NCBI RefSeq assembly: GCF_012034205.1
Contig: NZ_JAATEM010000008.1
Span: forward strand, 1 to 64,000
DNA from: Streptomyces composti
GTDB lineage: Bacteria; Actinomycetota; Actinomycetes; Streptomycetales; Streptomycetaceae
Direction: 5' to 3'
DNA: 64,000 nucleotides
In this document: piece after piece, positions 33,296 to 56,282 of the stretch
How the letters are laid out: the number at the start of each line of letters is the position of its first letter
How positions within the stretch are numbered: position 1 is the stretch's first letter
The notes under the pieces: generated by a model
Databases searched by the model: none
Told to the model about the DNA's origin: nothing
What the model saw: only the letters and a program-made list of their open reading frames with translations
Made by a program: the position numbers and the translations under genes

Positions 33296-36103
33296 TCACT
33301 TCGTGTTGCGCCCCGCCGCCAGCCGGACGATGTCCACCCGGGAGCGGATGCCCAGCTTGCGGTACACCCGGGTGAGGGTCGCCTCCACGGTCTTGACGCT
33401 GATGAACAGGCGCGCGGCGATCTCCCGGTTGGTCGCTCCCTCCATCACCAGCGCGGCCACCTGGCGTTCCATGGCGGCGAGACCGTCCAGCGCGGCCGGG
33501 GCAGCGGCCGGTGCCGCCTCCGGCTCCGGCGGGCCCGCTGCGGCCGCCGCCTCCACCTGGCGCAGCCAGGGCAGCGCGCGGCAGCGCCGGAACAGGCGAG
33601 CCGCCTCGTCGTAGGCCCGCGGGCCCGGGCGGCGGGAGCGCAGCCGGGCCAGCGCGAAGGCCGCCCGCGCCTCCTCCAGGCCGTAGCCCAGCTTGCCGAG
33701 CCGGTCCCGGGCGGAGGCCAACTGCGCCTCGGCGGCGTCGTGTTCGCCGCGTGCGGCGCGCACCAGCGCCTCGGCGCGGTCGAGCACGGCGAGCACGCCC
33801 GCCCGGTCCAGTCGCAGGGCGTGCACCCGGGTGAGGTTGATCAGCTCCTGGGCCTCGCCCGGCTCGCCGATCCGCACCAGCGCCTCGGCGAGGTCGCCGT
33901 GCCAGCGGCCGCGGGCCGGGTCGCTGATGCCCATGCCCTGCTCCAGCTCCCGCACCCGCCTGAGCGAACGCACCGCCGCCGCCGCGTCCCCGCAGACCAG
34001 CTGGGCGTAGCCGAGCGCGGCCAGCGCCCGCGAGAGGTACATCTGGTCGCCGTCGACCTCGGCGTGGTCGGCCGCCTCGCGGGCCAGTGCCAGCGCGCGG
34101 TCCACGTCCCCGCCGGACGCCTCGGCGAGCGAGGCCAGCATCGCGGAGGCGCCCTCGCCGATGCCGGAGTCGCGGGCCAGGCGCAGGCTCTCCCTGGCCA
34201 GGTCCAGGGCCCGGCCGCAGTGCCCGGAGCGCAGCTCGGTGTCGGCCAGGAAGCGCAGGAAGTGCACCTCGCTCTCGACCATGCCGCGCCGCCGCGCCTC
34301 GCGCAGCAGGGCGGTGATGGACATCCGGGCCTGGGGCAGCTGGTCGCTCATCAGCAGCCAGCGGAAGCGGGCCATGCCGGCGCCGTTGTGGTGGCAGGCG
34401 ACGTACGGGTCCTGCGGCTCGCGCAGGGCCCGCTTGATGGTGACGGGGGCGTCGGGGTGGCCCATCAGCGTCTCGGTGGACGCCTGGAAGGCCAGCGACA
34501 TCAGCTCGGTGCGCCGGTCCCCGCCCCGCGCCGCCAGCTCCGCCGCGTGCGCGGCCTCCCGGCGCGCCTTGTCGAAGTCGCCGTCGACGACCAGTTCCCG
34601 CCAGGCCAGCTGGTAGTGGACCAGCGCCAGCAGCCGCGGGTCGTCGCCCGCGTCGGCCAGCACCTGCGGGAACACCGCGTCGACCTCGCCGAGCGCCTGC
34701 CCGGCCGCCTCGATGACCACCATCCAGGCCCGCACCCGCTCCGCCGGCACGGTGGCCCGGGTGAGCACCTCGCGGGCGATGTCCCGCGCCAGGTCGGCCT
34801 CGCCCGCGGTGATCGCGTCCTCCGCGGCCTGCAGCCGCCGCTCGTCCGGTCCCGGTGAGCTGCCGGCGGGCGTGTGCCGGGCGGCCAGCAGCCCCAGCGA
34901 GGCGGCCACCGAGGGCGCACCGCGGTCCCGGGCCAGTGCGGCGGCCTCCGCGAGCCGGGCCGCCACCTCCGGGTCGGTGCCGGTGGTCGCCAGTGCCAGA
35001 TGCCGGGCCCGCTCGATCGGGTCGGAGGCGGCCCTGGACAGTGCGGTGTGCACCGCCCGCCGCTCGTGCGCCGGGGCCTCCGCGTACAGGGCCGCCGAGA
35101 TCAGCGGGTGCGCGAACCGCAGCGCCGGCTCCTCCGGGTCGGTGGCGAGCAGACCCAGCGCGGCGGCCTGCGCGGTCTCCGCCTCGGCGTTCTCCCGGCC
35201 CGCCGCGTGCAGCAGCGCCAGCGTGGGCCGGGCGCCCGCGCTGGCCACCAGCAGCGTGCGGCGTGCCTCCGCCGAGAGCAGCTCCAGGCGGCTGAGGACC
35301 AGGGCGCGCAGCGAGGTCGGCACCGGCAGCGGCTCGCCCGGCCGGGGCCTGGTGGGGCTCTCCGCGAGGGCGCGGCCCAGCTCGAGCGCGAACAGCGGGT
35401 TGCCGCCGCTGGTGCGGTGGATGTCGCGGGCCGTGGAGCGGGACAGGCCGGTGTAGCCGCGGTGGTCCAGCAGCGCCGAGACCTGGGCGCGGGTGAACGG
35501 GCCCAGCCGCACGGCCAGCGTGTCCGGCGGGCAGGACCGCAGGTGCCGGTCGTACTCCTCGTCCTCGGTGCGCACCGCGCACAGCATCTGCACCGGTGTG
35601 CCGCCGAGCCGCCGGGCGGCGAAGCCGAGCAGCTCGGCGCTGGCCGAGTCCAGCCACTGCAGATCGTCGGCGACCACCAGCACGGGACCGTCGGCGGCGA
35701 GCGCGCGCAGCGCGGACAGCACCGCGAGGCGCAGCGCGAGACCGTCCCGCTGCAGTGTGGACTCGCGGCCGGTGAGCGCCGACTCCAGGGCGGTGCGCTG
35801 GGCGGCGGGCAGCCGCGGGGCGACCCGGTCCAGGACGAGACCGAACAGGTCGGCCAGCGCCAGGAACGGCAGATGCGATTCGGACTCGGTGGCCGAGCAG
35901 CGCAACACGGTGCGCGGCGCGGCGGCGTTTTCCGCCGCAAGTGCCCGCAGCACGGTCGATTTTCCTATTCCGGCGGGGCCGTGCAGCAGCACGCTGCCGC
36001 CGCGGGCCAGCTGCTCGCGGGCGTCGGAGAACAGCTCCTCCCGCCCGATGACCAGGTCGGGGCGGCTCCTGGCAGGCTCCTGGAAGTCCCGTCGCACGGT
36101 CAC
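33296..36103 (-). CDS. LAL-type LuxR regulator (AAA ATPase + HTH)
   Basis: A 935-residue regulator of the large ATP-binding LuxR (LAL) family. An N-terminal AAA/NB-ARC-like ATPase has Walker A (LLHGPAGIGKSTVLRAL, about residue 40-55) and Walker B (GPVLVVADDLQWLD). It is followed by long TPR-like helical repeats and a C-terminal LuxR HTH (AAMERQVAALVMEGATNREIAARLFISVKTVEATLTRVYRKLGIRSRVDIVRLA). LAL proteins often act as pathway-specific activators. The GTG at 36103 follows GGAGGGGAG. No biosynthetic cluster is visible in the window; a second LuxR gene and an acyl-CoA synthetase lie just to its right. Confidence 0.92.
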   Translation of the reverse strand: MTVRRDFQEPARSRPDLVIGREELFSDAREQLARGGSVLLHGPAGIGKSTVLRALAAENAAAPRTVLRCSATESESHLPFLALADLFGLVLDRVAPRLPAAQRTALESALTGRESTLQRDGLALRLAVLSALRALAADGPVLVVADDLQWLDSASAELLGFAARRLGGTPVQMLCAVRTEDEEYDRHLRSCPPDTLAVRLGPFTRAQVSALLDHRGYTGLSRSTARDIHRTSGGNPLFALELGRALAESPTRPRPGEPLPVPTSLRALVLSRLELLSAEARRTLLVASAGARPTLALLHAAGRENAEAETAQAAALGLLATDPEEPALRFAHPLISAALYAEAPAHERRAVHTALSRAASDPIERARHLALATTGTDPEVAARLAEAAALARDRGAPSVAASLGLLAARHTPAGSSPGPDERRLQAAEDAITAGEADLARDIAREVLTRATVPAERVRAWMVVIEAAGQALGEVDAVFPQVLADAGDDPRLLALVHYQLAWRELVVDGDFDKARREAAHAAELAARGGDRRTELMSLAFQASTETLMGHPDAPVTIKRALREPQDPYVACHHNGAGMARFRWLLMSDQLPQARMSITALLREARRRGMVESEVHFLRFLADTELRSGHCGRALDLARESLRLARDSGIGEGASAMLASLAEASGGDVDRALALAREAADHAEVDGDQMYLSRALAALGYAQLVCGDAAAAVRSLRRVRELEQGMGISDPARGRWHGDLAEALVRIGEPGEAQELINLTRVHALRLDRAGVLAVLDRAEALVRAARGEHDAAEAQLASARDRLGKLGYGLEEARAAFALARLRSRRPGPRAYDEAARLFRRCRALPWLRQVEAAAAAGPPEPEAAPAAAPAALDGLAAMERQVAALVMEGATNREIAARLFISVKTVEATLTRVYRKLGIRSRVDIVRLAAGRNTK

Positions 36104-36272: not shown

Positions 36273-37121
36273 CTACGGCAACCACCCGGCCCGGCGGGCC
36301 GCCACGACGGCCTGGCCGCGGGTGCGGGCGCCCAGCTTCCGCATCGCGGAGCGCAGATACGCCTTGACGGTTTCGGCCGTCACGCCCAACTGCCGTGCGG
36401 CCGCCGCATTGGTCGCGCCGGCCGCCACACAGGCCAGCACGTCCAGCTCGCGCGGCGCCAGCCGCACCGGCGCCGCGGGGTCCGGCCCGGCCGTCAGCAG
36501 GGAGCAGGCCTGCAGCAGCTCGGCCCGCAGCGCCGGGTCCGCGATCCGCGGGGCGAGCGCCCGCAGCGCCGCGTGCGCCTCCCGCACCTGCTCCCAGGCG
36601 GCCCCGGACGCCGAGTCCGGCCCCGGCTGCGGGCGGGCCGCCGCCAGCAGCTCACCGGCCTCCTCCCGCACCACCAGCGCCTGCTCCACGTCCCGCGCTG
36701 CCTGCACGGCCAGCCCCAGCACCCGGTCGCCGAGCGGCTGCGCCGCGCGCAGCGCCCCGTAGAGCACGCCCCGCACCCGCCGCCGCACCACCACCGGGAC
36801 GGCCACCACCGCGCGCAGGCCCTCGGCGGAGACGGGGCCGTCGTACTCGTGGCTGATCTGCCGGGACGACGAGTAGTCGGTCACCGCGCACGGGCGGGCC
36901 AGCGCCAGCGCCTTGCCGCCCAGGCCGTTGCCCGCGGTCACCGCGAGCGAGCTCAGCGCGGGCGTGGCCGTGCCGCTGAGCTCGCTGATGCGCACCTGCT
37001 GCCGTCCGGGCTCCACCAGGCCGCCGAAGGCCACCGGCAGGCCGGTCGTACGCCGCAGCCTGGCGAGCGCACCGCGGATCTCGGCCGCACCGTCGACCGC
37101 CGTCATCCGGTCAGCTGTCAC
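36273..37121 (-). CDS. GAF-LuxR transcriptional regulator
   Basis: A 282-residue regulator with an N-terminal GAF-type sensor region (LPVAFGGLVEPG, GLGGKALALARPCAVTDYSSSRQISHEYDGPVSAEGLRAVVAVPVVVRRRVRGVLYG). A helical linker and a C-terminal LuxR HTH follow (LAPRELDVLACVAAGATNAAAARQLGVTAETVKAYLRSAMRKLGARTRGQAVVAARRAG). The GTG at 37121 follows GGAGGGG. It is divergent from the acyl-CoA synthetase across 147 bases that contain a CCCCC-CTTT-CGGGGG hairpin, so it probably controls that gene in response to a small ligand. Confidence 0.88.
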   Translation of the reverse strand: MTADRMTAVDGAAEIRGALARLRRTTGLPVAFGGLVEPGRQQVRISELSGTATPALSSLAVTAGNGLGGKALALARPCAVTDYSSSRQISHEYDGPVSAEGLRAVVAVPVVVRRRVRGVLYGALRAAQPLGDRVLGLAVQAARDVEQALVVREEAGELLAAARPQPGPDSASGAAWEQVREAHAALRALAPRIADPALRAELLQACSLLTAGPDPAAPVRLAPRELDVLACVAAGATNAAAARQLGVTAETVKAYLRSAMRKLGARTRGQAVVAARRAGWLP

Positions 37122-37268: not shown

Positions 37269-38651
37269 ATGACGGCGACGGAGGAGTTCCGCAGGGCCAG
37301 GGACTTCCTGCTGGAACACCGGGAGGACTACGCCACGGCCTACGAGCAGTTCCGCTGGCCCCGGCCGGAACGGTTCAACTGGGCGCTGGACTGGTTCGAC
37401 GTGATCGCCGACGGCAACGACCGCACGGCGCTCCACCTCGTCGAGGAGGACGGCAGCCGGACCCGGCTGTCCTTCGCCGACCTCGCCCGCCGCTCCGACC
37501 AGGTCGCCAACTGGCTGCGCGACCAGGGGGTGACCGCCGAGGACCGGGTCCTGGTGATGCTCGGCAACCAGGCGGAGCTGTGGGAGACCGCTCTCGCCGC
37601 GATGAAGCTGCGCGCCGTCGTCATCCCGGCCACCCCGCTGCTCGGTCCCGCCGACCTCAGGGACCGCGTCGACCGGGGCCGGGTCCGGCATGTGATCGTG
37701 CGCGCCGCCGACACCGCCAAGTTCGACCAGGTGCCCGGCGACTACACCCGCGTCGCCGTGGGCGAGGGGGCCGGCGACGGCTGGCTGCCGTACGCCGACG
37801 CCTACGGCTCCGCCGAGCACTTCGCGCCGGACGGGCCGACCCTCGCCGACGACCCGCTGATGCTGTACTTCACCTCGGGCACCACCGCGCGGCCGAAACT
37901 CGTCGAGCACACGCATGTGTCGTACCCGATCGGCCATCTCGCGACGATGTACTGGATCGGCCTGAGGCCCGGCGACGTGCACCTCAACATCTCCTCGCCC
38001 GGCTGGGCCAAGCACGCCTGGTCCAATCTCTTCGCCCCGTGGAACGCCGAGGCGACCGTCTTCCTGCACAACTACACCCGCTTCGACGCGGCCCGCCTGA
38101 TGGCCGAGATGGACAAGGCCGGCGTCACCACCTTCTGCGCCCCGCCGACCGTGTGGCGCATGCTCATCCAGGCCGACCTCACCCAGCTGAGCACCCCGCC
38201 CCGGGAGGTCGTCGCCGCGGGCGAACCGCTCAACCCCGAGGTCATCGAGCAGGTGCGGCGGGCCTGGGGCGTGACCATCCGGGACGGCTTCGGGCAGACC
38301 GAGACCGCCGTGCAGGTCTCCAACAGCCCCGGCCAGGTCCTCAAGACCGGCTCCATGGGCCGCCCCAGCCCCGGCTACCGCATCGAGCTGCTCGACCCCG
38401 TCTCCGGCGCGCCCGGAGCCCACGAGGGCGAGATCGCCATCGACCTGTCCCAGCGCCCGGTGGGCCTGATGACCGGCTACCACGGCGACCCCGAGCGCAC
38501 CGCGGAGGCGATGGCCGGCGGCTACTACCGCACCGGCGACATCGGCTCCCGCGACGCCGACGGCTACATCACCTATGTGGGGCGCGCCGACGACGTGTTC
38601 AAGGCGTCTGCACCAGGTGCAATTTCTTTCCGATTGGAACTAGCCGCCTGA
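37269..38651 (+). pseudogene. acyl-CoA synthetase interrupted by prophage integration (5' part)
   Basis: An AMP-forming acyl-CoA synthetase of the medium-chain/benzoate type. The ATP-binding motif YFTSGTTARPKLVEHTH, the SSPGWAKHAWSNLFAPW segment, the A5 motif GFGQTET and the adenylate motif GYYRTGDIG are intact. The protein breaks right after the hinge motif GRADDVFKAS; family members continue with DYKISPFELES and a C-terminal lid carrying the catalytic Lys. Here the frame enters phage DNA and ends as APGAISFRLELAA (460 residues instead of about 550). The enzyme should therefore be unable to complete adenylation while the prophage is present. The ATG at 37269 has AGGAGG upstream. The 3' part should sit at the other prophage end, outside the window. 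Confidence 0.9.
38596..38622 (+). other. prophage attachment junction (left-hand in window)
   Basis: Host coding sequence is recognisable up to about GTTCAAGGCGTC (38597-38608). Beyond it the DNA turns AT-richer and no longer encodes the enzyme. A 13-base palindrome TGCACCAGGTGCA (38609-38621) begins the phage side and may be an integrase half-site. The crossover is most likely within AAGGCGTC; the exact core cannot be fixed without the other junction. Confidence 0.75.
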
Positions 38652-38666
38652 CCTGCACAAACACCG

Positions 38667-38694
38667 AGGCCCCCGCGAGTCGGGGGCCTTTGTC
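38667..38694 (+). terminator. phage terminator just inside the att junction
   Basis: A 9-bp stem (AGGCCCCCG 38667-38675 with CGGGGGCCT 38681-38689) and a TTTGTC tail lie directly after the chimeric stop codon. It would stop host transcription from entering the phage early operon. Confidence 0.85.
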
Positions 38695-38706
38695 GTGGGA
38701 GGAACC

Positions 38707-38976
38707 GTGTCCGAACCGGACTGGAAGGCCGCCCTGCGGGCGGATCTGGGCGAGGCGTTCGACGCTGCCATGCCCCACATCGAGGCCGCCTTCAAGCGGG
38801 GCTTCGACAGGGGCAGGAGCCGGGCCGGCTACCGCGTGCTCCGGGAGAACGAGCGGCTACGCCGCGAGCTGGAGCTTGCGCACGGAGAGAGAAAGGAGGA
38901 GCCGTGCAGAACGGACACTGCTGGTGCGGCAGGCCCTACCCCTGCCTCGCCCACGGAAGCGGGCGATGACTCGTGA
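38707..38976 (+). CDS. small phage protein, coiled-coil
   Basis: An 89-residue charged protein with a helical, coiled-coil-prone centre (FKRGFDRGRSRAGYRVLRENERLRRELELAHGERK) and an Ala/Pro tail. The GTG at 38707 follows GGGAGGA. It is the first gene of the rightward phage operon; its stop overlaps the next start (GTGA). Function unknown. Confidence 0.65.
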   Translation: MSEPDWKAALRADLGEAFDAAMPHIEAAFKRGFDRGRSRAGYRVLRENERLRRELELAHGERKEEPCRTDTAGAAGPTPASPTEAGDDS

Positions 38977-39062
38977 TCGTCCTCACCCGCCTTCAGAAAG
39001 TGATCATCGTGGCCGCCTTCACGGCGGCCTTCGTCATGTCAGGGGTGCCGCACTGGTGGTGA
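38973..39062 (+). CDS. 29-residue phage membrane miniprotein
   Basis: GTG 38973 overlaps the previous stop (GTGA). The product is one hydrophobic helix (VIIVAAFTAAFVMSG) with a short basic start and a Trp-Trp end (GVPHWW). The stop again overlaps the following GTG. Coupled overlaps on both sides support translation. Function unknown. Confidence 0.5.
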   Translation: MIVLTRLQKVIIVAAFTAAFVMSGVPHWW

Positions 39063-39187
39063 AGCACAGAGTGAATTCGTGGAAGAGCCACCTGACCTCA
39101 TTCGGGTGGTCGGTGGCCTCCGGCGTCGTCGGGTCGGGCATCGGCCTTCTGGCCGCAGCCCTCTATCTGCGCGTGCGGGGATGGTGA
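39059..39187 (+). CDS. 42-residue phage membrane miniprotein
   Basis: GTG 39059 overlaps the stop of the preceding miniprotein. A basic start (MKHRVNSWKSH) is followed by one Gly-rich membrane helix (WSVASGVVGSGIGLLAAALYLRV). The stop overlaps the WhiB-like start (TGATG). With its neighbour it could form a small membrane pair, for example in exclusion; this is only inference. Confidence 0.5.
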   Translation: MKHRVNSWKSHLTSFGWSVASGVVGSGIGLLAAALYLRVRGW

Positions 39188-39921
39188 TGGTGCTCTATGA
39201 CCCGCACCGCCGATGGGCGCACCGCGGCATCTGCCGCTGGGAAGACCGCGCCCTCTTCTTCGCCGAGGGCGGCATGCCCCATCGCCGCCCGGCGGAGAAC
39301 GTCCAGAAGCTCTGGGACCAGGCCAAGGAAATCTGTGCCATGTGCCCGGTGCTCGCCGAGTGCCAGCGAGACACGCTCGGTGAGGAATACGGCGTGTACG
39401 GCGGGCGTGATCCCTACGAGCGCTGGCGCATTCGGAAGGTGATGAACCGGTCCATCGTCCGATGGCCGGAGGAACGGCGCCTCGCCTGGGCGAAAGAGAT
39501 CTACTTCCTGCGCAAGGAGCTGGGCATGGGCTGGCGGGCGATCCAGACCCGGACCGGGATGCCGGAATCGGCCGCACAGACCCTCTACGCCCTCTGGAAG
39601 GACCGCCTGGCCGAGGAGAAGGAGAAGGCGGCCAAGGCCGACATCATCGACCTTGACCTTCCCGAGCCGGAGCCGGCCAAGCCGGATTTCCCCGAGCGCC
39701 CCGGACGACGCCACGCATGGGTCCGCAATCACGGGCTCATCGCCGACGGCTGGTACCGGGGCGAAACACCGGACGGCCAATGGATCAATCTCACCGTCTT
39801 CAGCGGCCGGGGTCAGGTGCACAAGTGGTTCCGCAAGGACGACGTGCACCTGTACCGCCCGCAGGCGGTGGTCATTCTCAACTACGCCGAAAGGCCGGAC
39901 GATCATGACCTCACCGCCTGA
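39187..39921 (+). CDS. WhiB-like protein with extra HTH and C-terminal domain
   Basis: A 244-residue protein. Residues 1-75 are a WhiB-like Fe-S domain with the four ligands Cys16, Cys50, Cys53 and Cys59 (GICRW, EICAMCPVLAEC) and the turn motif GVYGG. WhiB proteins bind sigma factor region 4 to redirect transcription. Unlike the usual 80-110 residue family members, this one adds a helix-turn-helix-like segment (about 105-140, FLRKELGMGWRAIQTRTGMPESAAQTLYALW), a charged linker, and a C-terminal beta-rich domain (HAWVRNHGLIADGWYRGETPDGQWINLTVF). ATG 39187 overlaps the previous stop; an ATG six bases earlier is possible. It is a likely phage regulator of host or phage transcription. Confidence 0.82.
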   Translation: MVLYDPHRRWAHRGICRWEDRALFFAEGGMPHRRPAENVQKLWDQAKEICAMCPVLAECQRDTLGEEYGVYGGRDPYERWRIRKVMNRSIVRWPEERRLAWAKEIYFLRKELGMGWRAIQTRTGMPESAAQTLYALWKDRLAEEKEKAAKADIIDLDLPEPEPAKPDFPERPGRRHAWVRNHGLIADGWYRGETPDGQWINLTVFSGRGQVHKWFRKDDVHLYRPQAVVILNYAERPDDHDLTA

Positions 39922-40771
39922 GCTGAGGTTGCCCGACCACATCTCTCATTCGTCCCGTGAGGCCCTGGAGCGCTGCGCCAAGCAGTACTTCCTGACCCGC
40001 GTGGCGAAAGCCCCGCAGACGCCCGCCCTGTGGCTGGCAGGGGGGTCCGCGGTGCATGAGGCGACCGAGAACTACGACCTTCTGGCCTTCGCGGGAATGC
40101 TGGAGGACTTCCAGGCCGAAGAGGTCTGGAACGCCTTCTTCGACTCGCAGTTGGCCGAGGCCCGAGAAAGGGAGGAGAACGAGAATCTGTGGCGCCAGGC
40201 CGCCACCGAGCCCATCGAGGTCTGGCGCCGCATGGGCCTGCAATTCGTGCAGGCGTACGTGGACTGGCGCGAGCGTAGCCCGTGGGAGATCTGGACGACA
40301 CCCGACGGGTTCCCCGCCATCGAGCTGGATGTGTCGGGCAAGCTGCCCGGCTGCGACGTCGAGATCAAGGCGTACCTTGACCGGGTCTTCTGGGACCCGG
40401 TGCTCAAGCGGCTCGTGATCGTCGATCTGAAGACGAGCAAGAGGCCGCCCAAGACGCCGGCCCAGTTCGAGACGTACGCGGCCCTGCTGAAGGCCAAGTA
40501 CGACGTCCAGGCGGACCTGGGCGCGGCCTTCATGAACCGCAGGGGCACGCTCGGCGCGCCCTTCGACCTGTCCGGCGTGACGCCTCAGGCCGTGGGCGCC
40601 GTCTACGGCGAGGCGTGGCGGCAGATCCAGGGCTACATGGCTGCCGGGAACTTCCCGGCCGACACCTCGGACTGCTTCCTGTGCGACGTGAAGGCCGCCT
40701 GCCACGCCCAGAACGGGCCGCTGGCCCACCTCTACGACCCGGCGTCGCCGGGCTACCCCATTCCCTTCTGA
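39905..40771 (+). CDS. RecB/Cas4-like PD-(D/E)XK nuclease with Fe-S cluster
   Basis: A 288-residue nuclease. Motifs are an early helix with Cys (ALERCAKQYFL), the His in AVHEATEN, the acidic residue in YLDRVFWD, and the core VDLKTSKRPPK. A QxxxY-like helix (AQFETYAALLK) follows. The C-terminal CFLCDVKAAC, with the first Cys, matches the four-Cys Fe-S staple of AddB/Cas4 exonucleases. It probably processes DNA ends in phage recombination or replication. Start ATG 39905 overlaps the end of the WhiB-like gene. Confidence 0.88.
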   Translation: MTSPPELRLPDHISHSSREALERCAKQYFLTRVAKAPQTPALWLAGGSAVHEATENYDLLAFAGMLEDFQAEEVWNAFFDSQLAEAREREENENLWRQAATEPIEVWRRMGLQFVQAYVDWRERSPWEIWTTPDGFPAIELDVSGKLPGCDVEIKAYLDRVFWDPVLKRLVIVDLKTSKRPPKTPAQFETYAALLKAKYDVQADLGAAFMNRRGTLGAPFDLSGVTPQAVGAVYGEAWRQIQGYMAAGNFPADTSDCFLCDVKAACHAQNGPLAHLYDPASPGYPIPF

Positions 40772-40780
40772 GGAGGACTC

Positions 40781-40954
40781 ATGGCCGACAGGAGTGCCAA
40801 GGACAAGGCCATGGCCGCAGAGCTGAAGAAGCGCGGCGTGCAGCGCACCACCGGCATGTGCCCCATGGGCTGCGGCCGTGCGCTGCCCAACGGGGGCGGG
40901 GCCCTGGTGGTGCACCTGGGCCACTGCCGCGGGCGTACGAAGCGTGCTGCCTGA
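40781..40954 (+). CDS. 57-residue zinc-ribbon-like phage protein
   Basis: ATG 40781 follows a full AGGAGGA. A basic helical half is followed by a Cys/His site (CPMGCGRALP, VVHLGHCRGR), a plausible one-zinc fold. Function unknown; its position between nuclease and methyltransferase suggests a DNA-related role. Confidence 0.6.
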   Translation: MADRSAKDKAMAAELKKRGVQRTTGMCPMGCGRALPNGGGALVVHLGHCRGRTKRAA

Positions 40955-41042
40955 CTGTGACTGTGGCGCCTGCTGCGAGCAGTGCGGCCACGAGCCCGAC
41001 TGCATCCGCAACGAGCCTCGGGAGGACGATGCCGATTCTTAG
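40944..41042 (+). CDS. 32-residue Cys-rich phage miniprotein
   Basis: GTG 40944 overlaps the previous gene by 11 bases, and its TAG overlaps the methyltransferase start by 14. It encodes CDCGACCEQCGHEPDC, six Cys and one His in 16 residues, far denser than chance. Ribosome site weak (GAAG). Possible metal-binding peptide. Confidence 0.45.
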   Translation: MLPDCDCGACCEQCGHEPDCIRNEPREDDADS

Positions 41043-42165
41043 CCTCTGCACGGGCTATGGAGGGCTGGACATGGCCGTGGAGGCCCTGACCGGTGACAAG
41101 GTCGCTTACGTCGCGGAGAACGACGAAGCGGCCTCTCTTGTGCTCGCGCACCACTGGCCCGAGGTGCCCAACCTCGGGGACATCACCACGTACGACTTCA
41201 CGCAACTGGCCGGCGAGGTGGACATCATCACCGCCGGCTTCAGTTGTCAGGACATCTCCAACGCCGGAGGCAGAGAGGGGATCAATGGCAGCAAGTCCAA
41301 GATCTGGAAAGACGTCTGCCGGGCCGTACGCGATATTCGACCTCGCTACGCGTTCCTGGAGAACGTTGCGGCGATCCGCTCGCGGGGCCTCGACGTCGTC
41401 GCTGAAGACCTGGCCAGCGTCGGGTATGACCTCTGGTGGACGACTCTTCGAGCTTCCGACGTGGGAGCCGCCCACATCCGCTACCGGTGGTTCGGTATTG
41501 CCGTTCCCCACGCCGAAGGCGTCCGACGGCCCCCATGGAGGGCCGAACCAACGCAGCAGCAAGGGGAAGTACGACGCTCTGCCGGGGATGGTGGTCAACC
41601 TTCTGCCGACCCCGATCGCCCGAGACTGGAAGCCCGGGACGCTGACGCTGGGCACCAGGGGCCGCCCGCTGGGGGAAGTCGTCCTGCTGCTGAAGACCCC
41701 TACGGCCCAGCTCGGGACGAACGGGGCAGCGCAGCACCCGGACAAGAGGCGAGGGGGGGGCACGGACCGACCCTTGACGACGAAGTCTCCTTCCTTCTTC
41801 CCCACGCCCACGGCGGCGGACGGGAGGGGAGGGCCGGGGACGAGCCCGAACCGGAAGGGCGGGATGAACCTTCGGACGGCAGTTACTCACCTGCCGAATG
41901 GTGGGGGGAGTACCTGCCCGCTATCCGTAGATGGGAAAAACTGAGCGGGGTTCCCGCCCCCGCTCCCACAGAGATTGGACCCCGAGGAGGCCGCCGATTG
42001 GCGGCCCCTTTTGCTGAGTGGCTGATGGGCGTACCCGGCCATGTCACCGGGGTCCCGGGCCTGGATCGGGCCCAGCAACTCCACAAGATCGGCAACGGCG
42101 CCATGCCGCAGCAGGCGTACGTGGCGTACGAGCACATCTTCAACCTGATGAAAGAGGCCGTGTGA
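41029..42165 (+). CDS. DNA (cytosine-5) methyltransferase, frame scrambled in the middle
   Basis: A Dcm-type enzyme. Motif I (LCTGYGGLD), motif IV with catalytic Cys73 (GFSCQDISNAG), motif VI (FLENVA), motif VIII (HIRYRWFGIA) and motif X (LHKIGNGAMPQQAYVAY) are all in one open frame of 378 residues. Between residues about 160 and 305, however, that frame is mostly nonsense-like. The typical target-recognition repeats (FPTPKASDG, LLPTPIARDWK, FPTPTAADGRGG) lie in the +1 frame. Joining them needs switches near 41504-41514, 41753-41760, 41798-41808 and 41903-41908. As it reads, the target-recognition part is disrupted. The ATG at 41029 follows GGGAGGA. Confidence 0.8.
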   Translation: MPILSLCTGYGGLDMAVEALTGDKVAYVAENDEAASLVLAHHWPEVPNLGDITTYDFTQLAGEVDIITAGFSCQDISNAGGREGINGSKSKIWKDVCRAVRDIRPRYAFLENVAAIRSRGLDVVAEDLASVGYDLWWTTLRASDVGAAHIRYRWFGIAVPHAEGVRRPPWRAEPTQQQGEVRRSAGDGGQPSADPDRPRLEARDADAGHQGPPAGGSRPAAEDPYGPARDERGSAAPGQEARGGHGPTLDDEVSFLLPHAHGGGREGRAGDEPEPEGRDEPSDGSYSPAEWWGEYLPAIRRWEKLSGVPAPAPTEIGPRGGRRLAAPFAEWLMGVPGHVTGVPGLDRAQQLHKIGNGAMPQQAYVAYEHIFNLMKEAV

Positions 42166-42791
42166 CCGACACCCCTGACTCTGTTGATGTTGATGTTGAG
42201 GCCGAGGGCTGGGACGAGCCGCAGGCCACCTACCCGGAGTTTCCGGCGAACCCCCACAACCACCGCTACACCATCTCGATGAACGCCCAGGGCCCGATGC
42301 TGGTGATCCGGGCGAACACTGGGGAGGAGATCAAGGCGGCCTCCGAGGAACTGGAGGACGCCGCCGTGGGCGCGGCCATCGGCCGCGCGTGGTCCGCGTT
42401 CAAGGCCGGTGCGGCCCTCGGGAACGGTCTGGGAGCCACGCCCGTCCAGGGCCCGCCGGCGGCCCCGCAGGCGCCCACGCCGCCCCCGTTCGGGCCGAAC
42501 GTGAGCGTGCCGCAGGCGCCGGGCTACCAGGGCCCGCCGGTGCCCCCTCCTCCGCCGCCCGCTCCGGCGGCGCACAACAACGCGGCTGAGTTCTCTCAGG
42601 CCGGCTGGTACCGGCTGAACGTCCCGTTCAAGCAGAAGAGCACCTTTGACGGCATCGTGGCGCAGTACCAACTGCGCAAGGGCCGCCCGTCCGAGGGCGG
42701 GCAGGTGTCGTTCAACAAGGCGGACAAGAGCTGGTACGTGGACCCGCAGTACGCGGGCGCCTTCAGCCAGTTCAACCCCGTGCCTGCGTAG
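42162..42791 (+). CDS. phage protein with proline-rich linker
   Basis: A 209-residue protein in two parts. The N-terminal domain (PHNHRYTISMNAQGPMLVIRANTGEEIKAASEELEDAAVGAAIGRAWSAFKAG) and the compact C-terminal domain (AGWYRLNVPFKQKSTFDGIVAQYQLRKGRPSEGGQVSFNKADKSWYVD) are joined by a Pro-rich linker with seven consecutive prolines. The composition would suit an accessory DNA-binding protein, for example one acting at replication forks, but no family is recognised. GTG 42162 overlaps the methyltransferase stop, with AAAGAGG upstream. Confidence 0.6.
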   Translation: MTDTPDSVDVDVEAEGWDEPQATYPEFPANPHNHRYTISMNAQGPMLVIRANTGEEIKAASEELEDAAVGAAIGRAWSAFKAGAALGNGLGATPVQGPPAAPQAPTPPPFGPNVSVPQAPGYQGPPVPPPPPPAPAAHNNAAEFSQAGWYRLNVPFKQKSTFDGIVAQYQLRKGRPSEGGQVSFNKADKSWYVDPQYAGAFSQFNPVPA

Positions 42792-42797
42792 GGTCCC

Positions 42798-43628
42798 GTG
42801 CTCACGCTCTCACGGTCGGTGAAGCGGGCGGCCAGCGGCAAGGAGCCGTTGCCGCCCGCTTTCGCTTCGTGGGCAGCGCACGGGATACGGCCCCGGCGGG
42901 CGTCGGTGTCGATGCTCGCCGGGGTCCCCGGCACCCACAAGACACGGATCATGCTCAACGCCGTGGTCAACATGGGCGTGTCCACGCTCGCGTTCTCCAC
43001 GGACTCCGATCAGGACACGATCAGCTCTCGCCTGCTGGCGAGGGCGACGGGTACGCCGACGTCGGTCACCGAGGAGTGGCTGAGGACGGAGCCGGACAAG
43101 TGCGCCCGGCTGCTGGCTCAGTACGACTTCATCCGCTGGGACTTCCGTCCCGATCCGACCATGGATGACATCTGGCTGGGGCTGTACGCCTACCACGAGA
43201 CGGAGGGGCGCTACCCGGACCAGACGGTGATCGACATTGCCTCCGACGTCGGGCACGACGCCGGGGACGAGTGGGCGTCTCTGCGGGACCTGATGCGCCA
43301 GGCGAAGGTCATTGCCCGGGAGACCGGGACGCATCTGTGGCTGGTGCACCACTGCTCCGACTCGCCGAACACCAAGCGGCCGTGTCCGCGCCGTTCGGAC
43401 ATCCATGGCAAGGTCGCCGCCATTCCCGAGCTGATCGTCACCGTCGGCATGGACAACTCAGGCGGCCTGTACGCCGCGCCGGTGAAGAACCGACACGCCA
43501 AGGCATCGGCGGATGCCGAGATCCGTATCCCCATGACGCTGAACGCGGAGACGTCCTACGTCGGGGACTACGTGCCCCAGACCCCCGCCTACGGGGGCTG
43601 GAGCGCAGGAGAGGAGGACTGGGGTTGA
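42798..43628 (+). CDS. DnaB/RecA-like replication ATPase
   Basis: A 276-residue P-loop ATPase. Walker A is AGVPGTHKTRIML (about residue 41-53) and a Walker B-like strand is TVIDIASDVGHD. A conserved His-rich strand (THLWLVHHCSD) and a C-terminal LIVTVGMDNSGGLYAAPVKNRHA resemble the RecA core of DnaB-type helicases without the N-terminal primase-binding domain. It probably unwinds DNA or acts as a loader with the split primase downstream. GTG 42798 start; its stop overlaps the next TTG. Confidence 0.75.
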   Translation: MLTLSRSVKRAASGKEPLPPAFASWAAHGIRPRRASVSMLAGVPGTHKTRIMLNAVVNMGVSTLAFSTDSDQDTISSRLLARATGTPTSVTEEWLRTEPDKCARLLAQYDFIRWDFRPDPTMDDIWLGLYAYHETEGRYPDQTVIDIASDVGHDAGDEWASLRDLMRQAKVIARETGTHLWLVHHCSDSPNTKRPCPRRSDIHGKVAAIPELIVTVGMDNSGGLYAAPVKNRHAKASADAEIRIPMTLNAETSYVGDYVPQTPAYGGWSAGEEDWG

Positions 43629-44407
43629 GACACATAGTCATGTGGTCCGGCGGGATCACATCGTGGGCAACGGCCCGCATCATCGTTGAACGTCACGGCC
43701 CAGATGCCGTGACGTTCTTGTTTGCGGACACCAACGCGGAAGACGAAGACCTCTACCGCTTCAACGAGGAGGCCGCCGCCAAGCTGGGCGGCCAGGTCGT
43801 ACGCGTGGCAGATCCGCGGGAGCGGGACCCCTGGGACGTCTTTGAAGACGAACGCTATCTAGGGAACACCCGCCTGGCCCCCTGCTCGAAGCTGCTCAAG
43901 CAGGCACCCGCACGACGCTGGGTCGCCGACAACACCACTCCGGAGGACGCCACCCTTTACATCGGCATTGACTGGACAGAGACCCACCGCATCCCGGCGA
44001 ACCGGGCTGGCTGGGCGCCCTGGCCTGTTGAGTATCCATTGACTGAACCGCCCTACCGAGACAAAGACTTCTGGATCGAGGAGGCCCGCAGGGCTGGCCT
44101 GGAGCCCACCAGGATGTATGACCTTGGCTTCAGCCATGCGAATTGCGGGGGAGCCTGCGTCAGAGCGGGGCAGGGCCAGTGGGCCCATCTCCTGAAGGTC
44201 TTCCCTGAGCGCTACGCCTACGCGGAAGCGCGAGAGGAGCGACTGCGCCAGAAGCTCGGCAAGGACGTCTCGATCCTGCGAGATCGCCGGGGCGGAACGC
44301 TCAAGCCGTTGACTCTCAAGGCGTTCAGGGAACGCATCGAGGCCCAGGAGGCCGATGTGGACGCCGACGACATCGGCGGGTGCGGATGCTTCACGGAGGC
44401 CGCATGA
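43625..44407 (+). CDS. PAPS reductase-like (adenine nucleotide alpha hydrolase) protein
   Basis: A 260-residue protein with the N-type PP-loop (MWSGGITSWATA, the SGG-x-x-S pyrophosphate motif) and PAPS-reductase-like continuation (VTFLFADTNAEDEDLYRF). Cys pairs occur in APCSKLLK and CGGACVRAGQ near the middle and CGCF at the end. Phage members are thought to act in nucleotide or DNA/tRNA modification; the substrate is unknown. TTG 43625 has GGAGG seven bases upstream and overlaps the previous stop, so I prefer it to the ATG at 43640. Confidence 0.75.
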   Translation: MRHIVMWSGGITSWATARIIVERHGPDAVTFLFADTNAEDEDLYRFNEEAAAKLGGQVVRVADPRERDPWDVFEDERYLGNTRLAPCSKLLKQAPARRWVADNTTPEDATLYIGIDWTETHRIPANRAGWAPWPVEYPLTEPPYRDKDFWIEEARRAGLEPTRMYDLGFSHANCGGACVRAGQGQWAHLLKVFPERYAYAEAREERLRQKLGKDVSILRDRRGGTLKPLTLKAFRERIEAQEADVDADDIGGCGCFTEAA

Positions 44408-44589
44408 CCTGCCGCTACTTCCACCGCTGGAGCGAGTGGAGCACCGAGTACGAGGAATGCCCGGACGGCGAGATGGGGGTCTACGAGTACAGGTCCCGCC
44501 GCTGCAAACGGCGGGGCTGCGACATGATCGAGGAGGACTTCCGATGCGTGTCATTGTCACCGGAAGTCGTGCGTGGCCGGACCCGGTGA
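44404..44589 (+). CDS. 61-residue Cys-rich phage protein
   Basis: ATG 44404 overlaps the preceding TGA. The sequence (CRYFHRWSEWSTEYEECPDG, RRCKRRGCDM) has five Cys and many aromatic residues, typical of small phage zinc-binding proteins. It overlaps the next gene by 46 bases. Function unknown. Confidence 0.55.
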   Translation: MTCRYFHRWSEWSTEYEECPDGEMGVYEYRSRRCKRRGCDMIEEDFRCVSLSPEVVRGRTR

Positions 44590-44936
44590 GGGTCGCCCAC
44601 GAGCTGAACAAGCTCTACCTACAGCACGGCCCGTTCGTGCTCGTGCACGGCGCCTGCGCCACCGGCGCGGACGCTGCCGCCCACCACTGGTACGAGACGG
44701 CCGGCGAAGACCTCGGCTGCATCGAGGTCCGCTATCCGGCCGACTGGGAGCAGTACGGCAAGAAGGCCGGGCCTATCCGCAACAAGGAGATGGTCAGCAA
44801 GGGTGCTGACCTTGTGCTGGCGTTCCCGCTGCCCGGCGGCAGCGGGACACAGATGACGATGGAACTGGCCCGCGAAGCGGGCATCCCGGTGCAGGAGTTC
44901 GTCCATGACCGACACACACACGGGCCTGCCGCATGA
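44544..44936 (+). CDS. SLOG-superfamily (DUF2493, YspA-like) protein
   Basis: A 130-residue Rossmann-like protein. It starts with the family motif RVIVTGSRAWPDP, then LVHGACATGADAAAHHW (Gly-rich nucleotide loop), RYPADWEQYGKKAGPIRNKEMV and LVLAFPLPGGSGTQMTMELAREAGI. SLOG proteins bind nucleotides or nucleotide-derived signals; DprA is a relative. ATG 44544 follows AGGAGGA. In a phage it might sense or sequester a nucleotide messenger (inference). Confidence 0.85.
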   Translation: MRVIVTGSRAWPDPVRVAHELNKLYLQHGPFVLVHGACATGADAAAHHWYETAGEDLGCIEVRYPADWEQYGKKAGPIRNKEMVSKGADLVLAFPLPGGSGTQMTMELAREAGIPVQEFVHDRHTHGPAA

Positions 44937-45099
44937 CCTGCCGCTGGCCAAGGTCCGGATCTACAAGCAGGGCGTCTGGTGGTACTGGGAGCACCCCTGT
45001 GTCTGGCGTCCGGCGTCCACGCCGTACAACAGCTACCCCTGCGTCTCGCACGCCACGGCTCTGCAAGGGGCGTTGAGGCATCTGGAGCGGTGTGCATGA
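44905..45099 (+). CDS. 64-residue Trp-rich phage protein
   Basis: ATG 44905 lies inside the SLOG gene end (32-base overlap) and the stop overlaps the next start (ATGA). The product has a compact aromatic centre (VRIYKQGVWWYWEHPCVWRP) and a helical end (SHATALQGALRHLERC), consistent with a small folded domain. Function unknown. Confidence 0.6.
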   Translation: MTDTHTGLPHDLPLAKVRIYKQGVWWYWEHPCVWRPASTPYNSYPCVSHATALQGALRHLERCA

Positions 45100-45506
45100 C
45101 CGCGTCCAAGAAGAAGGGCACGGCCGCCGAGCGCGAGGTTGTGAACTTTCTGAAGATCTGGTGGCCCGCCGCTGAGCGGCGGGCCCTGTCCGGCAACAAG
45201 GACAAGGGCGACGTCGCCGGGATACCCGGCGTGGTCGTGGAGGTGAAGGCGGCCAGCCGCCTGGAGCTGGCCAAGTGGCAGCGCGAGACGTACGCGGAGT
45301 TGGCCAACGCCGGCGTGTCCGCCTGCGTGCTGGTGGTGAAGCGGGCGTACAAGGCCGTCGGCCAGTGGGACGCGTACGTTCCCGCGGATCAGATCCCTTC
45401 CGTGCTCCGCTGGGGCGGAGAGCAGGCCGTGACGAAGGACGGGTGTGTATGGGTGCGTATGGATCTTCTGCTCGCCGCCACGCTCTTGAAGGCCAACGGG
45501 TACTGA
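45096..45506 (+). CDS. PD-(D/E)XK nuclease, Holliday-junction-resolvase-like
   Basis: A 136-residue nuclease. The core motif is GDVAGIPGVVVEVKAASRLEL (acidic residue, then E-V-K), following an N-terminal helix KKKGTAAEREVVNFLK and the basic RRALSGNKDKG. This is the archaeal-type Hjc/VRR-like arrangement used by actinophages to resolve branched DNA. ATG 45096 overlaps the previous stop and its own stop overlaps the primase start (TGATG). Confidence 0.8.
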   Translation: MTASKKKGTAAEREVVNFLKIWWPAAERRALSGNKDKGDVAGIPGVVVEVKAASRLELAKWQRETYAELANAGVSACVLVVKRAYKAVGQWDAYVPADQIPSVLRWGGEQAVTKDGCVWVRMDLLLAATLLKANGY

Positions 45507-45880
45507 TGCCGCTTGCGCCGATCCTCGCCCACTACGGCGTAGACCTCCATGAGGGGCGGTGGGGCAACGAGATGGTGTGCTGCCCCGTCCACGGCGAGCG
45601 CCGGGCCTCCATGTCCGTCTCCGTGCAGAAGGGCCTGTTCCACTGCTTCGCCTGCGGCGCCTCGGGCGACGCCGTAAAGCTCGTCAAGTTGATGGAGGGG
45701 TGCGACTTTGCAGACGCTCTCCGCCGAGCAGAGGAGATTCTTCGAGCAGGCGGCCACGACCTACCGAGCCGATCTCGCGGCCGATACCGCCGCCCAGGGC
45801 TATCTGACGAGCCGGGGGCTGGGCGGCGCACTCGATACGTTCCGCCTGGGCGTCGTGAGGCGCCCGCTGGTCGGCCATGA
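45506..45880 (+). CDS. CHC2 zinc-finger part of a split DNA primase
   Basis: A 124-residue frame whose first 75 residues are the CHC2 primase zinc finger (CCPVHGERRASMSV, LFHCFACGASGDAVKLVKLMEGCDFADALRRAEEIL). The rest is Arg/Gly-rich and looks like out-of-frame sequence. The TOPRIM part starts inside it in another frame at 45708. The CHC2 part should bind template DNA for primer synthesis. Confidence 0.75.
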   Translation: MPLAPILAHYGVDLHEGRWGNEMVCCPVHGERRASMSVSVQKGLFHCFACGASGDAVKLVKLMEGCDFADALRRAEEILRAGGHDLPSRSRGRYRRPGLSDEPGAGRRTRYVPPGRREAPAGRP

Positions 45881-46346
45881 GCAGTACCAGGGACGCCTGG
45901 CGATCCCGTACCTGACCCCTGCGGGGGTCGTGAACATGCGTTTCCGCTGCCTCCAGCCGCACGACTGCAAGGCCGTGGACTGCCCCAAGTACCTGTCCGC
46001 CGACGGGGCGGGGACCAACCTCTACAACGTCCTGGATCTGAAGAAGGACTCGCCCTTCATCGTCGTGTGTGAGGGCGAGATCGACGCCATGTCCTTCTCT
46101 CTGGCCGGCATCCCGGCCGTGGGCGTGCCCGGCGTGGACGCCTGGCAGAAGCATTTCGCCCGCTGCCTGGAGGACTTCGAGGTCATCTACAGCGCCGGGG
46201 ACGGCGACAAGGCGGGGTCCAAGTTCAACAGCCTTCTGTCCCGCGAGGTCAAGGCCCGTCCATTGCGCTTCCCGCGAGGCATGGACGCCAATGCTCTGTA
46301 CGTAAAGGAGGGAGCCGGTGGGCTCCGACGACTCATCGAAGGATGA
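45708..46346 (+). CDS. TOPRIM part of a split DNA primase
   Basis: A 212-residue frame with the TOPRIM catalytic motifs: Glu in FIVVCEGEIDAMSF and the Asp pair in YSAGDGDKAG. Before them is the primase core entry (LAIPYLTPAGVVNMRFRCLQ). TTG 45708 has GGAGGGG seven bases upstream, so it can be translated on its own. It overlaps the CHC2 frame by 173 bases. In most phages both parts are one polypeptide; here they are either two subunits or the result of a frameshift. Confidence 0.8.
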   Translation: MQTLSAEQRRFFEQAATTYRADLAADTAAQGYLTSRGLGGALDTFRLGVVRRPLVGHEQYQGRLAIPYLTPAGVVNMRFRCLQPHDCKAVDCPKYLSADGAGTNLYNVLDLKKDSPFIVVCEGEIDAMSFSLAGIPAVGVPGVDAWQKHFARCLEDFEVIYSAGDGDKAGSKFNSLLSREVKARPLRFPRGMDANALYVKEGAGGLRRLIEG

Positions 46347-46863
46347 CCGCTGCATCTGCGGGCACATCCGCTTCCGCCATGAGCGGGAGGGCTCGCAGGA
46401 TACGCACTGCTCGCATCCGTCGTGCGCCTGCACGCAATACCACCAGGACGACCCCCGGACCAAGCCCTGCACGTGCGGGCCGGACGAAGCATGCGGTGAC
46501 CCGCGCACCAAAGAGCCCCAGTGTCCCCCGGCTTGCTCCGAGGGGCACACGTACAGCGGTAGCTGCGTGCAGCGGGCCTACGGCCCGGGAGAGCCCCCGC
46601 TGACGCCGGAGGAGGAAGGGGAGGCACCGGAGGACAGCGCCCCGTCGGAACCGCCCCCGCCCCAGCCGCCGAGGCGGCCACCGTTCGCCGTGAACTACTC
46701 CGTGCAGGGCCACCTGTACCAGCTCGCCGTCCCCGGTGACGCCACGGTGACGGCCGTGGACGGGGCCCTGGTCATCCAGCACCACTGGGGCCCGGTCTCC
46801 GGGATCGTCAAGGTGCTGCCGATCATCAGTGAGGAGAGCCATGCCGCTGAGGCTGACCAGTAA
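46318..46863 (+). CDS. phage protein with N-terminal Cys/His cluster
   Basis: A 181-residue protein. Residues 10-85 contain many Cys and His (CICGHIRFRHERE, HCSHPSCACTQYH, CTCGPDEACG, CPPACSEGH), probably two or more zinc sites. After a Pro-rich linker there is a small beta domain (FAVNYSVQGHLYQLAVPGDATVTAVDGALVIQHHWG). GTG 46318 follows GGAGGGAG and overlaps the TOPRIM gene. Function unknown. Confidence 0.6.
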   Translation: MGSDDSSKDDRCICGHIRFRHEREGSQDTHCSHPSCACTQYHQDDPRTKPCTCGPDEACGDPRTKEPQCPPACSEGHTYSGSCVQRAYGPGEPPLTPEEEGEAPEDSAPSEPPPPQPPRRPPFAVNYSVQGHLYQLAVPGDATVTAVDGALVIQHHWGPVSGIVKVLPIISEESHAAEADQ

Positions 46864-47161
46864 GGGAGCCGTCCGCTTCAGTTGGGCGGACGAGACGATG
46901 GAGGCCATCTGGACCCTGCGGCCGGAGGACACGCAGGACGAGCTGATGTCCAAGATGAAGCAGATTGTGGCCTTCATCGAGAGCCAGGGCCCCAAGGCGC
47001 CCCTGCCGGAGCGCACGCCGGGCCTGGCCCTGGAGATGACCAAGATGGCCCACCCGGCGCCACCGGGCAACGGGTGGGCGGCCATGGTGCCGCCGGAGCT
47101 GCCCGAGGACCGCAAGGGCGAGTGGGAGCTGATGCCGTCGGAGGAACAGGACAATGGCTGA
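46841..47161 (+). CDS. phage protein of unknown function
   Basis: A 106-residue protein with a defined N-terminal part (VRFSWADETMEAIWTLRPEDTQDELMSKMKQIVAFIE) and a Pro-rich second half. ATG 46841 follows GAGGAGAG; an ATG 12 bases earlier is less well placed. It overlaps both neighbours slightly. No family recognised. Confidence 0.55.
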   Translation: MPLRLTSKGAVRFSWADETMEAIWTLRPEDTQDELMSKMKQIVAFIESQGPKAPLPERTPGLALEMTKMAHPAPPGNGWAAMVPPELPEDRKGEWELMPSEEQDNG

Positions 47162-47357
47162 CCGCGAGTTCTTCATCACCGATCCGGACAGGACGGCGAA
47201 GGAGTATCCCAACCTGGAGCAGGCCGACAGGGCGGCCCGTGCCCTGATCGAGGACGGAGAGAGCGAGGTCTTCGTCATCCGCTGCACGGCCACCAGGCTG
47301 CGCCGCTACCAGCGGCAGGTGTCCGTGGCCGTCGAGGACGTCACCCGCCCGGCGTAG
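47154..47357 (+). CDS. 67-residue phage protein
   Basis: ATG 47154 overlaps the preceding gene by eight bases. The sequence (REFFITDPDRTAKEYPNLEQADRAARALIEDGESEVFVIRCTATRL) reads like a compact alpha/beta fold. Last gene of the rightward operon; a strong terminator follows 60 bases later. Confidence 0.6.
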   Translation: MADREFFITDPDRTAKEYPNLEQADRAARALIEDGESEVFVIRCTATRLRRYQRQVSVAVEDVTRPA

Positions 47358-47417
47358 CATGTGGAGGCCGTCCCGGCCTCCCGGCTTCATCACCCGGGCA
47401 CCTCTCCTCGGGACAGC

Positions 47418-47450
47418 AAAGAGCCCACCCCTTCGGGGGTGGGCTCTTTT
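47418..47450. terminator. perfect UUCG terminator between early and late modules
   Basis: A 14-bp stem (AAAGAGCCCACCCC 47418-47431 with GGGGTGGGCTCTTT 47436-47449) closed by a TTCG tetraloop ends in a T-run on the plus strand and has a fair T-run on the minus strand. It separates convergent phage operons. Confidence 0.95.
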
Positions 47451-47521
47451 GTTTGCCCGCAGGGGACCTTGCGGGCAACTGCTGCCGTCTTCGACGATAC
47501 CGGACGCCACTGACAGATGGG

Positions 47522-47779
47522 TCAGTCCGTGACTGATCCCTTCCCGACCGCCTTGCGTACGGCTTCCTCGATGCGCTTGGTCAGTACACCGTTGGTGTTC
47601 TCGTGGATCTCGTGCAGGACTTCGTCCTGCTTGCCCAGGCGGCCCTGGAGGATCACCACGGCCAGCACAGGGCCGATCAGGGTCACGTATTCGGCCGTCG
47701 GCTCGCCGCCGATGGCGAGGCCCACATAGCCGGCCACGCAGATGGCGAAGACGATCACCTGCATCAGTCGGTCGCTCAT
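47522..47779 (-). CDS. holin-like membrane protein
   Basis: An 85-residue protein with two hydrophobic segments (VIVFAICVAGYVGLAIGG, YVTLIGPVLAVVILQG) and a charged C-terminus (KQDEVLHEIHENTNGVLTKRIEEAVRKAVGKG), the layout of a class II holin. It is the last gene of the leftward late operon and overlaps the peptidoglycan-binding gene (ATGA), a usual place for lysis functions. Confidence 0.65.
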   Translation of the reverse strand: MSDRLMQVIVFAICVAGYVGLAIGGEPTAEYVTLIGPVLAVVILQGRLGKQDEVLHEIHENTNGVLTKRIEEAVRKAVGKGSVTD

Positions 47780-48018
47780 TCGTCCTCCCTCAAAGACGGG
47801 TGCTTCAGCCTGTCCAGGACCTCGGCCGTGGCCCTGTCCAGGACGCCTGTCACCGGGAGGCGGAAGAGCTTCTGCACGCCCCGCAGAGCCGCTTTCGTGG
47901 CGTCGTCCATCGCCCCGGTCACATCGAGGTTCAGAGCCCGCTGTGCGGTCCTCACGGCCTCTCTCTCGCCCTCGTTGGCGGGGGCGATGATCACCCGGTC
48001 AGGGGGCCAGTTCGTCAT
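47776..48018 (-). CDS. peptidoglycan-binding (PG_binding_1) protein
   Basis: An 80-residue protein with one PG_binding_1 unit (EREAVRTAQRALNLDVTGAMDDATKAALRGVQKLFRLPVTGVLDRATAEVLDRL). No hydrolase domain is attached. It may target lysis or adsorption to the wall. ATG 48018 overlaps the stop of the upstream virion gene; both ends overlap neighbours, so it is translationally coupled. Confidence 0.8.
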   Translation of the reverse strand: MTNWPPDRVIIAPANEGEREAVRTAQRALNLDVTGAMDDATKAALRGVQKLFRLPVTGVLDRATAEVLDRLKHPSLREDE

Positions 48019-52048: not shown

Positions 52049-52049
52049 C

Positions 52050-52504: not shown

Positions 52505-52513
52505 GACCGCTCC

Positions 52514-54138: not shown

Positions 54139-54140
54139 GG

Positions 54141-54329: not shown

Positions 54330-54340
54330 CACACAGTCCC

Positions 54341-55315: not shown

Positions 55316-55358
55316 GGCCTCTCACCCCCCAGTGGGGTGCCGTAGGGACAGGGAGAGG

Positions 55359-56270: not shown

Positions 56271-56282
56271 GCGACGGGGGCT
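56257..56282 (+). terminator. terminator of the moron-like gene
   Basis: An 8-bp stem AGCCCCCG / CGGGGGCT (56257-56264 with 56275-56282) overlaps the last codons of the membrane gene. No T-run. Confidence 0.65.

Follow-up and report, generated by a model that had tools for sequence, protein, structure and literature searches.

The locus lies on a 195,740-base contig (C77; NZ_JAATEM010000008.1) of the 6.5-Mb genome of Streptomyces composti, of which bases 1–64,000 were analysed as a single stretch of 64,000 nucleotides (hereafter the window; coordinates beyond it are given as C77 positions). At window 37269 an acyl-CoA synthetase gene begins on the plus strand. The ORF (37269–38651, 460 aa) reads as an AMP-binding synthetase (PF00501, 5.9e-61) up to GRADDVFKAS, at the hinge motif, and is 91% identical to the best sampled relative over query residues 2–447. 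However, rather than continue into the C-terminal domain, it ends 13 residues later with the phage-derived residues APGAISFRLELAA and a stop, whereas the closest sampled relative continues with DYKISPFELESALLEHEAV for another hundred residues. The host-derived part spans 37269–38605 and the phage-derived 3′ end spans 38606–38651.

Divergent from the synthetase is a GAF-LuxR regulator (36273–37121, minus strand; PF00196, 4.9e-14; PF01590, 1.8e-6), a host gene found in the same place in 22 of 24 relatives. Next to it, also on the minus strand (33296–36103), is a 935-aa protein which, from a reading of its sequence alone, has a P-loop-like ATPase start and a LuxR-type end.

A prophage splits the synthetase gene

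The preliminary description of this locus had proposed that a prophage is inserted at the hinge motif of the synthetase, and its observation is confirmed. The missing 116 residues, 91–93% identical to three intact relatives, lie beyond the window at C77:84680–85027. Both junctions share a 9-bp core, GTTCAAGGC (attL, window 38597–38605; attR, C77:84688–84696), and joining the flanks at this core gives one uninterrupted ORF of 556 aa. The insert is 46,091 bp; the part inside the window extends from 38597 to 64000. Two outcomes had been set beforehand as refuting an insertion, namely absence of the rest of the gene at the far end, or the same short gene in the closest relatives, and neither was obtained: 90 of 101 same-genus genomes (own genome included) have a match at E≤1e-100, and the 24 best intact loci all read DDVFKASDYK[I/V]SPFELES straight through the site. 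Four genomes (G008, G035, G044 and G046) gave only partial matches; the three of these that were examined (G035, G044 and G046) hold full-length genes, and thus no second insertion site was found there.

Of 10 insert proteins scanned, several match phage families: exonuclease, DnaB-like helicase, major head protein, portal, large terminase and integrase. The phage-derived end of the synthetase is followed by a CCTGCACAAAC element and a G+C-rich hairpin (38652–38699, plus strand; stem at 38667–38689). The hairpin was predicted by RNA folding (z −2.45), although a simple terminator scan calls it terminator-like on the minus strand only. The first phage gene thereafter (38707–38976, plus strand) begins VSEPDWK; the exonuclease is at 39905–40771 (plus strand; phrog_1870, 2.7e-35) and the major head protein at 54341–55315 (minus strand; phrog_1357, 6e-79). 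A near-identity search of 19.4 of the 46 kb (window 38613–58000) in phage records found nothing.

The integrase gene reads through attR into the synthetase

Of particular interest is the far junction. The integrase gene (int) starts at C77:82688 on the plus strand and runs rightwards into attR. The distance from its start to the first matched synthetase codon at C77:84680 is 1992 bases, or 664 codons, with no intervening stop; the lysogen therefore encodes a single ORF of 780 aa (C77:82688–85030) in which the integrase is fused in frame to the C-terminal domain of the synthetase. The stop of this fusion overlaps the GTG start of a second synthetase gene (C77:85027–85030), so the in-frame fusion may preserve translational coupling in the lysogen.

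The protein is a serine integrase. It carries an N-terminal Resolvase domain (PF00239, 2.2e-20) with the R-V-S-T serine motif (R35 V36 S37 T38, invariant in 27 aligned sequences) and matches phrog_95 integrase (3.6e-61). For the Recombinase and zinc-ribbon domains, PF13408 scored 24.5 bits (cut-off 25.3) and PF07508 18.8 bits (cut-off 21.1), in the right order but just under the curated cut-offs. A DUF4096/IS5-transposase-type domain is fused to the C-terminus of the serine integrase (residues 559–624, locus L034; here and below, L numbers denote individual loci), and is followed in the lysogen by a complete AMP-binding_C domain (profile positions 1–76). An AlphaFold model of the chimera (mean pLDDT 77) is mostly confident over residues 20–660, but says nothing about the AMP-binding_C part because the alignment supplied had no relatives there.

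It follows that attP lies inside the 3′ coding end of int: rejoining the left side of attR to the right side of attL gives an integrase that ends SEDDPFKAS-APGAISFRLELAA, that is, with the C-terminal residues SFRLELAA. The arrangement is seen directly in a free-phage contig (L214; IMG/VR, 92 kb, with 1162 bases after the int stop), where int reads DQDDPFKAS-RSGGISFLLTVAA and then stops. Integration thus exchanges the last codons of int, and the phage tail, with the hairpin behind it, is left on the truncated synthetase.

Distribution and targets of related integrases

Twenty-seven of 392 sampled same-genus genomes (own included) hold 28 relatives of the integrase at E below 1e-60. A profile search found 36 of 293 genomes of the order, all in the same genus (1 of 9 genera). 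A scan of GTDB contigs with the single protein found three distant loci, all from clostridia-type genomes, and a search of plasmids found no place covering 80% of the integrase.

In 16 cases the target is a sense-strand protein gene that could be named, and in 13 of these the integrase is in frame with it: the synthetase (L040, L042, L255), DprA (L047, L048, L061, L062, L063, L240, L243), a Pnkp-like gene (L050, L246) and an MFS-like gene (L056). The three out-of-frame cases are L041 (synthetase), L065 (DprA) and L051 (another AMP-ligase). L041 differs from the frame of its relatives by one C in a C-run, in a genome rated 88% complete; a sequencing error is likely, but it is counted here as out of frame. 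DprA was confirmed by PF02481 at the other end of six of these elements, while the Pnkp and MFS names rest on our reading of the sequence. A viral contig, L213, has the same DprA tail as L240 and was not counted again. The remaining loci are antisense, between genes or without a named target, with short unrelated tails in many relatives. Four relatives (L045, L052, L059 and L066) sit at the 3′ end of a convergent, DUF4191-like gene. Elements in dprA with the same integrase family (L072–L076, L274 and matching int loci) are, where both ends lie on one contig, only about 10–13 kb; one (L274) encodes a Prim-Pol protein of 849 aa. They may be satellites or integrative conjugative elements rather than phages.

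Chance read-through at attR can be rejected, because the same architecture is in frame with the same or other genes in 13 of 16 sense-strand cases and because the attP form exists in a free phage. A further possibility is that the in-frame chimera is itself the selected feature, the host domain giving the lysogen's integrase new properties (stability, altered directionality, or a metabolite sensor), much as the altered Mx8 integrase differs from its phage form with changed specificity (PMC6070905). Such a view draws support from the excess of in-frame cases over the one in three expected, across synthetase, DprA, Pnkp-like and MFS-like genes, and from the fact that the break in the synthetase falls at the domain boundary, such that a complete AMP-binding_C domain is added. 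However, frames are inherited within each target group, so there are only five groups (four in frame, one out), L065 is out of frame, and many relatives sit antisense, between genes or at unnamed targets. We consider this explanation unlikely.

Phage-form integrases usually end in AA

To examine the exchanged tail, phage-form ends were read in two ways. Among viral contigs, searches returned 80, 1 and 29 loci (the last partly on the same contigs), of which 33 contigs were tabulated; L150, L151 and L153, which run off the contig inside int, and the more distant loci were left out. In the 28 with at least 500 bases after the int stop, 23 integrases end in AA; clustered at 80% identity, 13 of 15 phage forms do so. 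Of these 28 contigs, 16 have a homologue of the window's exonuclease and 11 a homologue of the first phage gene within 3.5 kb after int, as expected of the attP form. Phage-form tails were also read from attL of chromosomal elements, where 10 of 15 end in AA. For these the frame of the truncated host ORF was used, except for L072 (integrase frame; the host frame gives another end) and for L052 and L059 (direct repeat). Direct-repeat searches for attL on 18 loci gave credible cores only for L052 (17 bp) and L059 (20 bp), plus the known window core; attL was not found in this way for the other 15, although that of L050 was found through its host gene.

In total, 33 of 43 phage-form tails end in AA. 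The ten exceptions end LR, LAV (three times) and LAS in viral contigs, and LGA, ELV, PTG, TAP (L052, LATAP) and SEG (L059, LRSEG) when read from attL. In contrast, only 1 of 50 integrated forms ends in AA, and that one (L056) is the end of a host MFS-like protein. The 50 comprise 27 complete of the 28 relatives above (L050 runs off its locus), 18 of 19 from the profile search (L246 runs off its locus; L266, cut short by a premature stop, is included) and five viral contigs that end at int, L213 among them. Of the 30 loci from the profile search, 10 repeat places already counted and L267 is partial, leaving the 19 that were read; 10 further rows had no locus. The chromosomal forms are taken as integrated, and not every locus had both junctions checked. 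The comparison gives Fisher p=3e-15, but related sequences are not independent events and several viral contigs are near-identical, so that the p-value overstates the evidence. As a baseline, 29 of 333 script-called ORFs in the same phage DNA end in AA.

The tail resembles the host tmRNA tag, ANSKRSISQGELALAA: LELAA in the integrase compares with ELALAA in the tag. A frequent wider pattern is hydrophobic-x-F-R-L/M-x-hydrophobic-A-A, as in ISFRLELAA, ISFLLTVAA, IRFRLAIAA, IRFRMDLAA, IPFRIMVAA and VRFSMAVAA. The ending is not universal. Distant relatives in free Arquatrovirinae phages (Triumph, phiHau3, Sentinel, Tefunt and others), which are 26–30% identical and in 20 records have one place covering at least 80% of the query, end KAS, KTA, STR, LTV or PTR in 10 of 10 phages read, and two mycobacteriophage serine integrases end LSA and GMS.

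Constraint on protein or on DNA

An alternative is that this is ordinary insertion by a serine integrase whose attP happens to overlap the 3′ end of int, as attP sites next to int often nearly do; the swapped tail would then have no regulatory role, and the AA ending would reflect common descent and a conserved DNA element overlapping the stop codon. In most of the phage forms inspected the stop is indeed followed by such an element, TGA-CCTGCrmAAAC or a near variant, and by a G+C-rich stretch (L129, L130, L132, L139–L143, L145–L149, L165, L214, L215, L229, L230, L232, and window 38652). A similar element follows int in some Arquatrovirinae that do not end in AA, the LAV and LAS endings keep it, and 10 of 43 phage forms lack AA; in SV1, moreover, attP lies just downstream of int (PMC4068962). 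Part of the conservation may therefore be at the level of DNA.

Three facts nevertheless speak for the protein. Firstly, the dprA and Pnkp-like groups lack the element and mostly keep AA, with GCCGCCTGA, GCGGCGTAG or GCCGCGTAG (L077 and L276 do not keep it); across the family AA is kept with different codons and stops (GCCGCCTGA, GCGGCGTAG, GCTGCCTGA, GCCGCGTAG). Secondly, a clade that lost the stop after RVAA (L131, L133, L134, L135, L223) gained a 16-residue extension that again ends in AA (TAA or RAA in L131, L133 and L134). Thirdly, phiScoe1 and Spernnie keep the element without AA; the element does not force AA. These data weaken the alternative, which we regard as rather unlikely but as the strongest of the competing explanations.

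Comparison with known systems

In Myxococcus phage Mx8, attP also lies in the int coding sequence and integration gives int a new 3′ end, changing but not abolishing activity (PMC6070905). Mx8 Int is a tyrosine recombinase, and no degron was found in its description; here the integrase is of the serine type with DUF4096, and the lost tail is ssrA-like. In the integration-dependent immunity of mycobacteriophage BPs and relatives, attP lies in a regulatory ORF and integration removes a C-terminal ssrA-like AA tag; the integrase there also carries a degradation signal (PMC4557955, PMC8092301, PMC9934374, PMC6109161). There, however, attP is in the repressor gene and the integrase is of the tyrosine type, whereas here attP is in int itself and, on sequence alone, it is Int that has the tag in the virus form and lacks it in the prophage form. 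The work cited in these papers includes Broussard 2013, Tojo 1996 and Magrini 1999. The present system works like a cross of the two in a serine integrase and is a member of neither. Literature searches, covering open papers and mostly only their titles and the beginnings of abstracts, listed no serine integrase with attP inside its own coding end and a swapped degron, and passages on phage Samy (PMC12924846) held nothing on attP inside int.

The Streptomyces phages SV1 and R4 likewise have a serine integrase, a short core and attB in a CoA-ligase gene. In SV1 this gene is SCO4383, but attP lies outside and downstream of int (PMC4068962). The preliminary description held that the insertion point is not the R4 site, and this is supported with a caveat: a 35-base query for the R4 attB, itself provisional as a reference sequence, matches with one mismatch in the next synthetase gene downstream (C77:85696–85730; L032:1696–1730) in the one locus searched (L032). 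If so, two phage groups would target neighbouring genes of one operon.

The interpretation offered in the preliminary description is only partly supported. Its serine-integrase prophage at the hinge of an acyl-CoA synthetase holds, but its suggestion of an active-lysogeny switch, in which regulated excision restores a regulated enzyme, has no support. Rejoining the flanks restores a full ORF, but any precise insertion restores its target on excision; the enzyme is broken in the lysogen; and the conserved divergent regulator says only that the host enzyme is probably regulated. Furthermore, the prophage carries head, portal and packaging genes, and relatives of the same Int use other targets such as dprA or antisense sites, so that regulation of the synthetase is not the common theme. 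We consider such a switch very unlikely.

A putative integration-dependent stability switch

The main point is that int itself is altered by integration. The junction anatomy is shown directly by the sequences: a temperate phage inserted at the hinge codons of the synthetase by means of a large serine integrase whose attP lies inside its own coding end, and the crossover swaps the last codons of int. What we infer, with moderate confidence and without data on stability, expression or recombination, is that the swapped tail is an ssrA-like degron read by the host Clp protease, and that it would act as follows. In the infecting or excised circle the integrase would be short-lived, so that integration needs a burst of synthesis and an excised genome is not put back. 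Once integrated, the enzyme would lack the degron and persist, ready for excision when a directionality factor is made. Where the frames agree, the broken host enzyme carries the tail and would be cleared; in-frame fusion to the host gene is not required, being seen in 13 of 16 sense-strand cases. The truncated synthetase lacks the C-terminal domain that enzymes of the ANL family need for adenylation. In SV1, interruption of the ligase target by a plasmid was deduced to be toxic in one host while the prophage is tolerated (PMC4068962); clearing a broken enzyme is one possible gain, although SV1 itself is built differently. The attached AMP-binding_C domain is most likely a tolerated passenger that may also keep translation running into the overlapping second synthetase gene.

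More tentatively, and on balance slightly less likely than not, a widespread class of serine integrases may use its own integration as a stability switch. In this view the circular form makes a self-destructing integrase, and integration hands the degron to the crippled host enzyme and gives the integrase a new, stable C-terminus, in several targets a complete host domain. The switch would be shared by full-size phages and by ∼11-kb elements, and would set both the lysogeny decision and the irreversibility of excision.

Serine integrases are among the most used phage tools in Streptomyces and in synthetic biology, and the means by which a phage stops its integrase from re-inserting an excised genome is usually put down to the directionality factor. 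Here the DNA rearrangement itself would toggle enzyme stability. The ideas combined are both known, the exchange of the int end from Mx8 and the loss of a degron from integration-dependent immunity; here they would be combined in a serine integrase. If true, this adds a regulatory layer to serine integrases, predicts that vectors built with the phage-form int carry a destabilised enzyme, and offers a ready module in which recombination changes the lifetime of its own enzyme. It also explains odd annotations: long ‘recombinase – AMP-binding’ or ‘recombinase – DprA’ chimeras in genomes would be lysogen junctions, not evolved fusions.
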